Below are positions 8,464 through 12,378 of a stretch of 64,000 nt of DNA, piece by piece. Source of the DNA: Candidatus Nitrosocosmicus oleophilus (lineage in GTDB: Archaea; Thermoproteota; Nitrososphaeria; Nitrososphaerales; Nitrososphaeraceae). The stretch lies in the NCBI RefSeq assembly GCF_000802205.1, contig NZ_CP012850.1, positions 1,984,001 to 2,048,000 of the forward strand. The letters run 5' to 3'. The position numbers and the translations under genes were made by a program. The first letter of the stretch is position 1, and the number at the start of each line of letters is the position of its first letter. The notes under the pieces were generated by a model, which saw nothing but the letters and a program-made list of their open reading frames with translations, ran no database searches and had not been told where the DNA came from.

Positions 8464-9279
8464 ATGCAAGACCATTCTACGAATGTGCAGGAGAATGGAA
8501 TTAGTAACCGTAAGAAGGTTGGAATCCGAAAAAAGACTGAGTATGAGGATGAAGATGATCAAGATAATTTAGAGTCCTTGATGATTGAAAAAAATTCTAA
8601 AGAATCATCAGAAACCTTATTTGCAAACATAGTGGGGTATGATGATGTTAAGAAAATTTTTAATTATGCATTTAATTCATCGTTACCAGTTCATATATTG
8701 CTTGTAGGTCCTCCTGGTTCTGCTAAGACGCTATTTTTGATGGAATGTATGAAACTTTCTCGTTCCTATTTTACGTTGGGTAGTCATAGCACGAAAGCAG
8801 GAATGTTAGATTACTTATTCAATAACAGACCAAAAAATCTAATCGTCGATGAAATTGAATATATGGCAATAAAGGATCAGGCAGCACTTCTTAGCTTGAT
8901 GGAAACAGGAATATTAAGCGAAACTAAATATGAAAAAACTCGTAATTCGATCATGAGGACATGGGTTTTTGCATCTTGTAATGATGAAAAAAAACTTCTA
9001 ACCCCACTCTTGTCGCGCTTCTTTGTACTTTATTTTAAGAAATATGACTATCCTACTTTTGAGAAGATAGCAAACCACATTTTAGCAAGTGAGTGTAATA
9101 TGGATTTTGAAGTCTCAACTCTGATTGCGAGATTGGTTTGGAATAAACTGAAATCTAGGGATATAAGAGATTGTATCAAAATAGGTCGAATTTGTAATAA
9201 TAAAGAAGATGTTTACACGATAATAAAGACCCTTATTAGGTATGATAGTACAAACGCTGGTAACAGTAAAAATATTTAG
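8464..9279 (+). CDS. AAA+ ATPase, RuvB/MoxR-like
   Basis: This 271-aa protein has a charged, probably disordered N-terminus (residues 1-50) and one AAA+ module: Walker A GPPGSAKT at 82-89, Walker B LIVDE at 126-130, a sensor-1-like FASCND and an LLSRF arginine-finger-like segment, then a small helical lid. It resembles archaeal RuvB/MoxR-like ATPases that remodel proteins or nucleic acids, but its target is unknown. It lies 85 bases upstream of the ligase-acetyltransferase-HemB-like run on the same strand and could be cotranscribed with it, or it could be independent. Confidence 0.8.
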   Translation: MQDHSTNVQENGISNRKKVGIRKKTEYEDEDDQDNLESLMIEKNSKESSETLFANIVGYDDVKKIFNYAFNSSLPVHILLVGPPGSAKTLFLMECMKLSRSYFTLGSHSTKAGMLDYLFNNRPKNLIVDEIEYMAIKDQAALLSLMETGILSETKYEKTRNSIMRTWVFASCNDEKKLLTPLLSRFFVLYFKKYDYPTFEKIANHILASECNMDFEVSTLIARLVWNKLKSRDIRDCIKIGRICNNKEDVYTIIKTLIRYDSTNAGNSKNI

Positions 9280-9364: not shown

Positions 9365-10534
9365 TTGAGTAAAGAACATGAAAAATTGAAAATTTTTATC
9401 TGTGGTCCAACCTTGTATGAAAAAAGCCACTTGGGGCATGCCCGAATTTTTATTTTTTTTAACTTTTTGATCAATTATTACAAATTTCTGGGAAAATCTC
9501 CAATTGCTGTAGTACAACTGACTGATGTCGATCCCAAAATATTTGCCAGAATCAAGGCAGATGCAGGTGCTAGTGGTAATCTCTCACTTGAAAATATAAC
9601 AAAGAATTATCTTACCCAATTGATCAAAGACTTACAAAAATTACAAGTTATCAACAATTTCACATTCACCAGAGTATCTAGTTTCCAAGTTCAAATGTTA
9701 AACCAAATAATAAACTTGCTTGAACTTAAGAAAGCTTACTCCTATGGGGGTAATATTTATCTTAAAATAGACCCAGATACTCAGAGTCCTTTTGGTTTTA
9801 CAACCAAACAATTGGATAACATGCCAATTGATATCGCGCCAGGTAAACAGGATCAAAAAGACATTATGCTTTGGAATGCTGAGAATTTCTATGATTTATC
9901 TATGAGGGGCGACGAACGCTTCGAATTCTATTTTAGGAATTTAGTTAGCGGGATTCCTGGATGGCATTTTCAAGATTATCAAATAATTAAGTCTGTTTTT
10001 AATCTTGACTATGACATACACGGGGGGGCAGACGAACTAGTTTATCCTCACCATGAATTCATTTATAGAATTTCTCATCAAATCCAAAAGATTAACCATC
10101 AAAATGAAAAAAAACCAAAATGGATTCACATAGGTATTTTGAAAATCAAATCTGAAAAGATGTCTAATTCTAGAGGTAATACTATTACTATAAGCGATTT
10201 CCTTAACAAATATTCTCCAAATTCTTTAAAGATACTTTTTCTAAGCGAATGTTACGACAAAGACTTTAGTCTTAATAAAAGGAAATTGTCGGATGCTGTT
10301 CTTGTAGATAATGAAATTTCATCATTTTTCATGTTGGAAAATGTCAAGAACGGAAAATCTACGGAAACATTAAATGATTCTGAGTCACAAAAATTTTCCG
10401 AGTTTTTGAGAATAATTAATAATAATTATGACACCAAATCCGCGATCAACTACATAAGAAAGTGTATAAGAGATCTAGAAAATGCTAATTATGTAAAGAA
10501 GATGACTGATTTACTTGGATTGCGATATTATTGA
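9365..10534 (+). CDS. divergent cysteinyl-tRNA synthetase-like ligase (MshC-like architecture)
   Basis: A 389-aa class I aminoacyl-adenylate-forming protein of the CysRS/MshC family starting at TTG. The catalytic core is present: CGPTLYEKSHLGHAR at 13-27 (HIGH motif as HLGH, first zinc Cys13), GWH at 199-201, HGGADE...PHHEF at 219-232 and KMSNSRGN at 265-272. Two of the four E. coli CysRS zinc ligands are changed: the Cys of GWHxECS is Asp204, and the Glu of HHENE is Ile233. The HHEF and KMSxSRGN variants are what I recall from MshC, the mycothiol ligase. Only about 90 residues follow KMSNS, so the tRNA anticodon domain is reduced or absent. It is more likely a small-molecule or peptide ligase than the housekeeping CysRS; its amino acid substrate is unknown. 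Confidence 0.82.
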   Translation: MSKEHEKLKIFICGPTLYEKSHLGHARIFIFFNFLINYYKFLGKSPIAVVQLTDVDPKIFARIKADAGASGNLSLENITKNYLTQLIKDLQKLQVINNFTFTRVSSFQVQMLNQIINLLELKKAYSYGGNIYLKIDPDTQSPFGFTTKQLDNMPIDIAPGKQDQKDIMLWNAENFYDLSMRGDERFEFYFRNLVSGIPGWHFQDYQIIKSVFNLDYDIHGGADELVYPHHEFIYRISHQIQKINHQNEKKPKWIHIGILKIKSEKMSNSRGNTITISDFLNKYSPNSLKILFLSECYDKDFSLNKRKLSDAVLVDNEISSFFMLENVKNGKSTETLNDSESQKFSEFLRIINNNYDTKSAINYIRKCIRDLENANYVKKMTDLLGLRYY

Positions 10535-11366
10535 TATCTTAAAATCAAATGAAATTGAATTTTGCAAGAGTTGGAGTAATAAGACAATTACCCTTACCGA
10601 CTCTTTTCAAATCTTAGCCTATCGAGCGTTAAAAGGCGACTATTTCCTCAACAGGGTCATTCTACTTCAGGGGATTGAGGAGTCTAAAAGGGGAGAAGAG
10701 CTTATTTTATCAATCGTATCACAACTTAAAGAAATTTCCAAAGTACAAGAAATAGATGTTTACATCCATATCGATGATAACCTTTCATTTATTAAATCAA
10801 TCCTTGAGAAGAACGGCTTTAGAAGTATCGATAAATTGACAGGATTGATCAATGTAGTTAGAGACCAAAAATACTTTTCAAAGAATGATTATGAAAAACA
10901 AGAACAGGTCGTTGATATCGAATCTTGTAAGGTGGTCAGCTCCGTCGAAGAATTCGATGATTGGCTAGATATTTATTTAAATTCATTTGGAATCGACATA
11001 CAAAAAAGAACCACTATTCGAACTAGTCTCCAAAAAGAGAATTTTAGTCAAAGTAAACTAATTTTGTATGAACAAGAACTCGATGATAAAAAAAATAACC
11101 ATAATAGTTTAAGAGCTTTGGGCTGTTGCTTGCTTTTCCCTTCAAATGGTGTCTTAGGTCTGTACTGCTTAGGTACCGATAAAAAGTTCCGAAATACTGG
11201 TATTGCTTCAAGCATTATAGACTTCGCAATATCTTATGCTAATACGAAAGGATATGATTTTCTAGGCCTTCAAGCTTTGCATAGCGATAATACAACAGGA
11301 TTTTATCAAAGACGAGGTTTCAAAAAAGTTTACATCAAAACTATCTTTTCTCTTTCTATCAGTTAG
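10515..11366 (+). CDS. GNAT-family acetyltransferase with two GNAT-like lobes
   Basis: The 283-aa product has a clear C-terminal GNAT domain: a strand pair (LGCCLLFP, GVLGLYCLGTD), the acetyl-CoA loop KKFRNTGIASSIIDFAI at about 223-239 and the closing GFYQRRGFKKV. The N-terminal half has a degenerate GNAT-like end (FIKSILEKNGFRSI) without the CoA loop, so the layout is that of tandem GNATs such as MshD. Its TTG start lies inside the 3' end of the CysRS-like gene (20-base overlap), implying coupled translation and a shared pathway. It probably acetylates an amine made by its neighbours; the substrate is not known. Confidence 0.82.
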   Translation: MDCDIIDILKSNEIEFCKSWSNKTITLTDSFQILAYRALKGDYFLNRVILLQGIEESKRGEELILSIVSQLKEISKVQEIDVYIHIDDNLSFIKSILEKNGFRSIDKLTGLINVVRDQKYFSKNDYEKQEQVVDIESCKVVSSVEEFDDWLDIYLNSFGIDIQKRTTIRTSLQKENFSQSKLILYEQELDDKKNNHNSLRALGCCLLFPSNGVLGLYCLGTDKKFRNTGIASSIIDFAISYANTKGYDFLGLQALHSDNTTGFYQRRGFKKVYIKTIFSLSIS

Positions 11367-11403
11367 ATTTAATATATCATTTGGTCCACTTATTTAAAAT
11401 CTA

Positions 11404-12378
11404 TTGACATTTCTTGAAGGTATACAGGGGGATCTAATTTTTCCTATATTCGTATATGAGGACGAGCAGGCTTACAAGCAAAGCTTAGATTCTGGATACA
11501 TGAATAATTCAAAAGTATTTTCGAAAAATTTGGTCAATAGGTTTGAGGAGTTGGCTCAACTTAAAATATCAAACATGTTGCTATTTGGCATTCCAAAAAA
11601 AAGAGACCGCTCAGGAAGTGAAGCTTTCAAAAAGAATGGAGTTATTCAAATTGCAATTCAAACAATAAGAAAAAATTTTGACAAAAAATTTAACATTCTC
11701 TCAGACGTTTGCATATGCCAGTATAATACAAGCGGCCATTGTGGTGTTACAAATGGCTCTAGAGAAGGTAACAGCCAGCCTAAGTATGGAATGCGAATAG
11801 ACAACGACAAGACCATAAATATTCTTGGAAAAATTTCATTAAGTCTTTGCGAAAGCGGAACCGATTTCATTGCTCCATCGTCAATGATGGACGGTCAAAT
11901 CTTGTACCTTTCTAATTTGTTAGAGAAGAGTGGGTTTAAAAAAGTAAAGATCATGAGTTACTCTGCTAAACATAATTCTTGTCTATACTCCCCATTTCGT
12001 AATTATAATTATCATAGTCCTAACTTTATTGATAAATCAAGTTATCAATGTAACTTTAACAATCCTAGGGAATCAATGCGAGAAATTTTATATGATATAA
12101 AAGAGGGTTCGGATTGGGTAATGATTAAACCATCATTTTGGTATATGGATTTAGTGAGATTAGCTAAGGATTTAGTGGACGTTCCTCTAGTAGTTCAGAA
12201 TGTCTCAGGTGAGTATGCTTTACTAAAGGCAGGCTCAAAAATAGACCCTATTGACCAAATGGAATGGACAGTTCAATATCTCAAAAGTTTAAGAAGGGCT
12301 GGTGCCGATAAAATAATTTCTTACTTAATATTTGATTTGCTTGTAGACTTTGAGAATGAATCTACATTATCAGTTTGA
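11404..12378 (+). CDS. divergent HemB-like (porphobilinogen synthase family) protein
   Basis: A 324-aa HemB homologue starting at TTG, 37 bases after the acetyltransferase gene. Family blocks appear in order: LIFPIFV (11-17), DVCICQYNTSGHCG with zinc-type Cys103, Cys105 and Cys113, APSSMMDGQ (157-165), SYSAK with Lys189, MIKPSFWYMD with Schiff-base Lys242, NVSGEYALLKA (266-276) and RRAGADKIISY. The substrate-binding DRKxYQM block is altered to DKSSYQC, replacing the Arg. The N-terminal arm that holds HemB octamers together is mostly missing. It retains aldolase-type chemistry but may condense something other than 5-aminolevulinate. Its setting, away from other heme genes, supports a specialised role. 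Confidence 0.82.
   Translation: MTFLEGIQGDLIFPIFVYEDEQAYKQSLDSGYMNNSKVFSKNLVNRFEELAQLKISNMLLFGIPKKRDRSGSEAFKKNGVIQIAIQTIRKNFDKKFNILSDVCICQYNTSGHCGVTNGSREGNSQPKYGMRIDNDKTINILGKISLSLCESGTDFIAPSSMMDGQILYLSNLLEKSGFKKVKIMSYSAKHNSCLYSPFRNYNYHSPNFIDKSSYQCNFNNPRESMREILYDIKEGSDWVMIKPSFWYMDLVRLAKDLVDVPLVVQNVSGEYALLKAGSKIDPIDQMEWTVQYLKSLRRAGADKIISYLIFDLLVDFENESTLSV

Follow-up and report, generated by a model that had tools for sequence, protein, structure and literature searches.

An archaeal gene set linking a cysteinyl-tRNA synthetase relative to a small protein with an invariant C-terminal tyrosine: a possible aminoacyl-carrier system

When relatives of aminoacyl-tRNA synthetases (aaRSs) serve as ligases, as do MshC, GluQ-RS and the MetRS-like hydrazine synthetases, a new metabolite or modification usually comes to light. 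In the LysW and CysO pathways, an amino acid is built or modified on the fixed C-terminus of a small protein, with a release step of the peptidase type. Pearlins follow a similar plan, being small ribosomal carrier proteins that are modified at a fixed C-terminus, again with peptidase-type release (PMC9303977, PMC9016710). Here, we compare with these systems a locus from a 64,000-nucleotide stretch (the window) of the complete, 3,430,706-base genome of Candidatus Nitrosocosmicus oleophilus. We find that a ligase related to cysteinyl-tRNA synthetase (CysRS), called LIG, a two-lobed acyltransferase, GNAT, and a small protein ending in tyrosine, CAR, almost certainly constitute one functional system, shared by soil and other Thaumarchaeota; in most other lineages, an HExxH zincin domain, ZIN, completes the set. 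The genes concerned in this genome are the following:

8464..9279, plus strand: AAA/MCM-type ATPase, syntenic with HemB2 and judged outside the system
9365..10534, plus strand: LIG, CysRS-derived ligase, 389 aa, TTG start
10515..11366, plus strand: GNAT, two-lobed GCN5-type acyltransferase, 283 aa, TTG start
11404..12378, plus strand: HemB2, second HemB paralogue, 324 aa, TTG start, judged outside the system
G000:C1:2079619–2079927, minus strand: CAR, in the window's own genome, lying about 32 kb beyond the window

As the preliminary description had reported, LIG, GNAT and HemB2 lie on one strand with TTG starts, the first two reading frames overlapping by 20 bases and the third following after a gap of 37 bases. 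LIG matches the Pfam family tRNA-synt_1e (E=1e-46), the class I catalytic domain of CysRS, and HemB2 matches ALAD/HemB (E=1.5e-90). The same genome has separate canonical genes for both functions, cysS at C1:2294945–2295823 (413 bits vs 161 for the window LIG) and hemB at C1:1164426–1165373 (453 bits vs 303 for the window copy). Since these score better, the window copies are paralogues rather than the organism's only copies, and the initial reading of LIG as a CysRS/MshC-like paralogue is upheld. In a tree that contained canonical CysRS and not MshC, LIG is monophyletic and separate from CysRS, with support of 100/99.

The LIG family keeps the class I catalytic motifs, HIGH and a KMSKS-type motif (KMSNS in the window copy), and it is missing the anticodon-binding domain, its chains measuring about 370–440 aa. 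With fold and motifs kept and the anticodon domain lost, LIG should form an aminoacyl-adenylate, though outside the usual tRNA setting; the fold leads us to expect that an amino acid is activated. The zinc site with which CysRS-type enzymes handle cysteine consists of Cys, Cys, His and Glu. LIG departs from this set: Cys28 and His234 are retained, Cys209 is replaced by Asp (GWHFQD in the window copy) in 54/54 family members, and position 238 is variable. One genome (G536) bears on the substitution, as the sole CysRS-type gene found there (L203:1480-2913) is full length at 477 aa, scores 516 bits, above the cysS cut-off, and carries Asp209, while CAR and ZIN are present as well. We considered SepRS as an explanation for a single CysRS with Asp209 and rejected it, no SepRS in this genome scoring above cut-off. 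If the assembly of G536 is complete at that point, Asp209 is compatible with cysteine.

The GNAT reading frame matches Acetyltransf_7 (2e-7) in its C-terminal lobe. Its AlphaFold2 model has two lobes (pLDDT 89.6), and the top PDB matches returned by Foldseek are tandem GNATs, MshD among them, which supports the MshD-like architecture first proposed for it. The C-lobe carries an acetyl-CoA loop (R226-x-x-G) and an invariant Tyr264 of catalytic type. Of 400 genomes sampled from the class, 119 give a GNAT match, and a similar set of them carries LIG in addition to, and distinct from, a first CysRS-like copy. At the loci examined, down to about 25–30% identity, GNAT follows LIG at its 3' end and in many cases overlaps it; LIG adjoins GNAT in 13 of the 15 families examined, and family f18 yielded no GNAT. 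This adjacency is far beyond chance, and LIG and GNAT are a conserved functional pair. When 84,980 species were scanned for DNA encoding PGWH(I/M)QDT, a diagnostic segment of LIG, 36 loci were recovered and all 36 encode LIG; nearly all the record titles name Thaumarchaeota, Nitrososphaeria or an unclassified archaeon, the others being one 'bacterium' and one 'Aenigmatarchaeota'. The pair also occurs in a sister lineage outside the class, in a genome (G549) where ZIN, CAR, LIG and GNAT stand together in one block. In a further genome (G584), LIG, CAR and ZIN fall within 7 kb, with a divergent GNAT-like gene between them.

The conservation of the LIG–GNAT order does not extend to HemB2, the third gene of the arrangement originally described. 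HemB2 stands beside the pair in ten Nitrosocosmicus-type genomes, but none of the loci outside the genus has a HemB gene next to LIG–GNAT. Moreover, HemB2 is kept in four congeners (G070, G093, G113 and G244) from which LIG, GNAT and CAR are all absent; in these, the ATPase gene, HemB2 and the downstream genes still follow one another in the same order, and LIG–GNAT alone is missing from the locus. Its relatives form a paralogue group that extends across Nitrososphaeraceae and is distinct from canonical HemB, occurring in several genera away from the pair and also in genera that have no LIG. HemB2 is thus very probably a genus-level neighbour and not a required part of the system, and we rejected it as a pathway partner on its presence without the pair in the congeners and its separate location in other genera. 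The AAA/MCM-like ATPase keeps strict synteny with HemB2 throughout the genus, even in genomes that have no ligase pair. The suggestion that it might be a member was dropped, as it stays with HemB2 where LIG–GNAT is absent.

HemB2 (the window copy and loci L158-L171) has features of its own. Both Schiff-base lysines (K189, K242) and the zinc cysteines (C103/C105/C113) are retained, and the NCBIfam score of 295.2 lies just below the HemB cut-off of 297. All HemB2 proteins have Lys for Arg in the DRxxYQ motif, where canonical copies have Arg; we take the substituted residue to correspond to the A-site carboxylate Arg (R216), and the A-site substrate of HemB2 may differ from 5-aminolevulinate. Some copies have a long insertion ahead of the C-terminal part.

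The closest partner of LIG is CAR, which the preliminary description missed because in this genome it is encoded beyond the window. CAR proteins are 80–137 aa long, with the motif LDxDEGIRI, and at most loci outside the genus the gene lies on the opposite strand directly upstream of LIG, so that the two are arranged head-to-head in most other families; they are unlinked in Nitrosocosmicus-type genomes and in genus g4. A profile search found a CAR member in 40/40 genomes with LIG and in 0/27 without it (naive Fisher 2e-19, uncorrected for kinship). The sole match to the profile in a LIG-negative genome (G113, E=0.004) falls within a 300-aa frame and looks like the low-scoring second matches in other genomes. 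In the four LIG-negative congeners the CAR locus is syntenic and CAR itself is gone. One congener (G154), which has both LIG–GNAT and CAR, nests among these losers in the HemB2 tree, which means that LIG–GNAT and CAR were lost together more than once; such loss at two unlinked loci, combined with the nested position of this genome, is strong evidence for one function. The LIG–CAR association is the tightest of all and holds even in f18.

Tyr is the last residue before the stop codon in 46/46 distinct complete CAR proteins, and also in all 21 complete CARs recovered through the LIG-motif scan, which were chosen by LIG and not by CAR; elsewhere in CAR, the frequency of Tyr is 3.9%. AlphaFold2 predicts with confidence (pLDDT 88) a small alpha/beta fold in which the C-terminus is the ordered end of a strand, Tyr closing the last strand at a pLDDT of about 89. 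A fold search against the PDB gave no match at E<=0.001, and no family in Pfam or NCBIfam reaches its cut-off with CAR.

Outside Nitrososphaeraceae, ZIN is found in 16 of 20 genomes with LIG and in 1 of 19 without it. It is absent from all sampled Nitrososphaeraceae genomes. ZIN is fused C-terminally to GNAT in families f20 and f22, and it is the next gene after GNAT in f4 and other families. Its HExxH motif makes it a candidate peptidase, with weak similarity to M78; some M78 peptidases cleave repressors. The ZIN gene is next to one for a Y-family DNA polymerase in two phylogenetically distant families, f2 and f68 (L077, L078, L181).

Other neighbours were also considered. A small thioredoxin/glutaredoxin-like protein with a WCPHC motif is encoded near LIG in three distant families (L084:11107-11448, L104, L151, L180:11243-11626); a thiol link is possible, although the association is not significant after multiple testing. 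Elp3 occurs within 3 kb in three families, its adjacency being near the level of chance and multiple testing, and we treat the thioredoxin-like, Elp3 and DinB neighbours, each found in three families, as leads only. A myo-inositol-1-phosphate synthase gene is found downstream of LIG–GNAT in Nitrososphaera-like genomes and in those of f2 (families f1/f2; L071-L074, L077-L079). As a partner of mycothiol type it was set aside, since it is not a neighbour in deeper families and its position is probably inherited synteny; a radical SAM/SPASM gene was rejected as it is upstream in g2 and g4 only. Across the neighbours of the families examined, no acceptor-making genes recur. PADLOC models matched none of LIG, GNAT, HemB2, CAR or ZIN, on which count we discarded a known anti-phage defence system, and a toxin–antitoxin module was discarded since CAR and the pair are unlinked in genomes of the Nitrosocosmicus type and of g4.

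How might these proteins work together? The system probably makes or delivers a metabolite. The best explanation of the whole, which we hold tentatively and at somewhat short of an even chance, is an aaRS-derived loader acting on a carrier-like CAR, followed by acylation and release by a peptidase. LIG would form an aminoacyl-adenylate, possibly cysteinyl; in place of a tRNA, it would charge CAR itself, or an acceptor that the C-terminal Tyr of CAR presents, with the amino acid. GNAT would then acylate the amino group of the loaded amino acid, and ZIN, or another peptidase in Nitrososphaeraceae, would release the product. The scheme would be analogous to those of LysW/LysK, CysO/Mec+ and the pearlins, with an aaRS-derived loader in place. 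CAR may be a covalent carrier or acceptor, an assignment to which we give less than an even chance; cysteine as the amino acid activated is slightly more doubtful. Class I aaRSs activate the carboxylate of a free amino acid, and loading therefore needs a nucleophile on CAR. Judging from the invariant positions, the only candidates are the Tyr phenol and the C-terminal carboxylate, either of which is chemically unusual. The ordered C-terminus predicted for CAR, the absence of ZIN from Nitrososphaeraceae and the missing GNAT in f18 count against the scheme. In its full form, a new aminoacyl-carrier system in which the aaRS relative would charge the Tyr region of CAR, GNAT would acetylate and the zincin would release a metabolite, possibly a cysteine-derived thiol, the proposal is a doubtful one.

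The main rival to the carrier model is that CAR activates LIG as a subunit, much as MbtH-like proteins are accessory subunits of adenylation domains. CAR would be an obligate accessory subunit with its Tyr in or near the active site, and LIG and GNAT would make a small N-acyl-aminoacyl metabolite in the fashion of MshC and MshD. The tightness of the LIG–CAR association, also where GNAT was not found, the predicted order of the CAR C-terminus and the resemblance of the GNAT fold to MshD among others all fit such an arrangement. It leaves the peptidase-like ZIN unexplained, however, and the lack of recurring acceptor-making genes nearby and of any tracking of LIG by PIG-L (MshB-type) genes leads us to consider it unlikely. 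Another reading starts from the fact that LIG is a truncated aaRS catalytic domain, like GluQ-RS, an aaRS relative that is also devoid of an anticodon domain and provides a precedent for base aminoacylation: LIG would aminoacylate a modified base in tRNA or rRNA and GNAT would acetylate it, CAR being an RNA-binding or specificity subunit. The Elp3 genes nearby in three families would suit this role, but at their near-chance level, and with the invariant Tyr of CAR and ZIN both left unexplained, we find it quite improbable.

The invariant C-terminal residue could also mark CAR as a protein modifier or regulated degron, with LIG or GNAT acting on the C-terminus, ZIN deconjugating or cleaving it, and a regulatory output; an HExxH protein with weak M78-like similarity in the cassette and its adjacency to the Y-family polymerase in two families agree with this. 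No CysRS-derived domain is known to activate protein C-termini, though, and CAR has neither a ubiquitin-like GG tail nor a confident fold match, so that a role of this kind is very improbable. Finally, the preliminary description had the ligase, GNAT and the HemB-like enzyme work on the same small molecule, with a pyrrole-like unit involved. While the operon-like layout is kept in ten Nitrosocosmicus-type genomes, HemB2 persists in four congeners that are devoid of LIG–GNAT, it lies away from the pair in other genera, and no HemB adjoins the pair outside the genus; a HemB-type step in the pathway is accordingly exceedingly improbable.

Whatever the chemistry, these genes tie an aaRS relative to CAR, a family whose C-terminal Tyr is invariant and which reaches no Pfam or NCBIfam cut-off. 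The system has been kept across ammonia-oxidising archaea and related lineages, with LIG and CAR lost together more than once. A literature search found no published description of the system, of a C-terminal-Tyr partner or of the four-gene cassette, and LIG is not among the enzymes described in the portion consulted of a class I aaRS survey (PMC2922099).

Among known systems, MshC is similar to LIG in being a CysRS paralogue that has no anticodon domain and is partnered with a two-lobed GNAT. LIG differs in its score against TIGR03447 (103.2 bits, below the curated cut-off of 485.1), in the Asp that replaces zinc ligand C209 and in its obligate C-terminal-Tyr protein. PIG-L, the MshB-like deacetylase, is absent from 8 of the 13 LIG-positive genomes tested and present in several LIG-negative ones; this distribution, together with the score and the zinc ligand, led us to rule out the mycothiol pathway. 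CysRS (TIGR00435) is the closest sequence relative, sharing HIGH, KMSKS, Cys28 and His234, but LIG scores 171 bits against a cut-off of 340, is truncated, carries C209D and coexists with a canonical cysS. GNAT resembles MshD in its two lobes, in the acetyl-CoA loop of the C-lobe and in having PDB 2c27 and 1ozp among its fold matches, whereas the window protein has no match to TIGR03448 (MshD) at E<=0.1 and other tandem GNATs fit the fold better. HemB2 is like porphobilinogen synthase (HemB) in both lysines and the zinc cysteines, and unlike it in forming a separate Nitrososphaeraceae paralogue clade with Arg replaced by Lys in DRxxYQ. As for the carriers, CAR shares with LysW, CysO and the pearlins a small ribosomal protein and an invariant C-terminal residue; its putative carrier role differs in the terminal Tyr and the aaRS-derived loader, and known carriers have flexible tails where the C-terminus of CAR is predicted to be ordered. 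Taken together, LIG is of a known kind, the aaRS-derived ligases, while its obligate partner with a C-terminal Tyr, and the cassette of four genes, appear to be undescribed in the literature searched.
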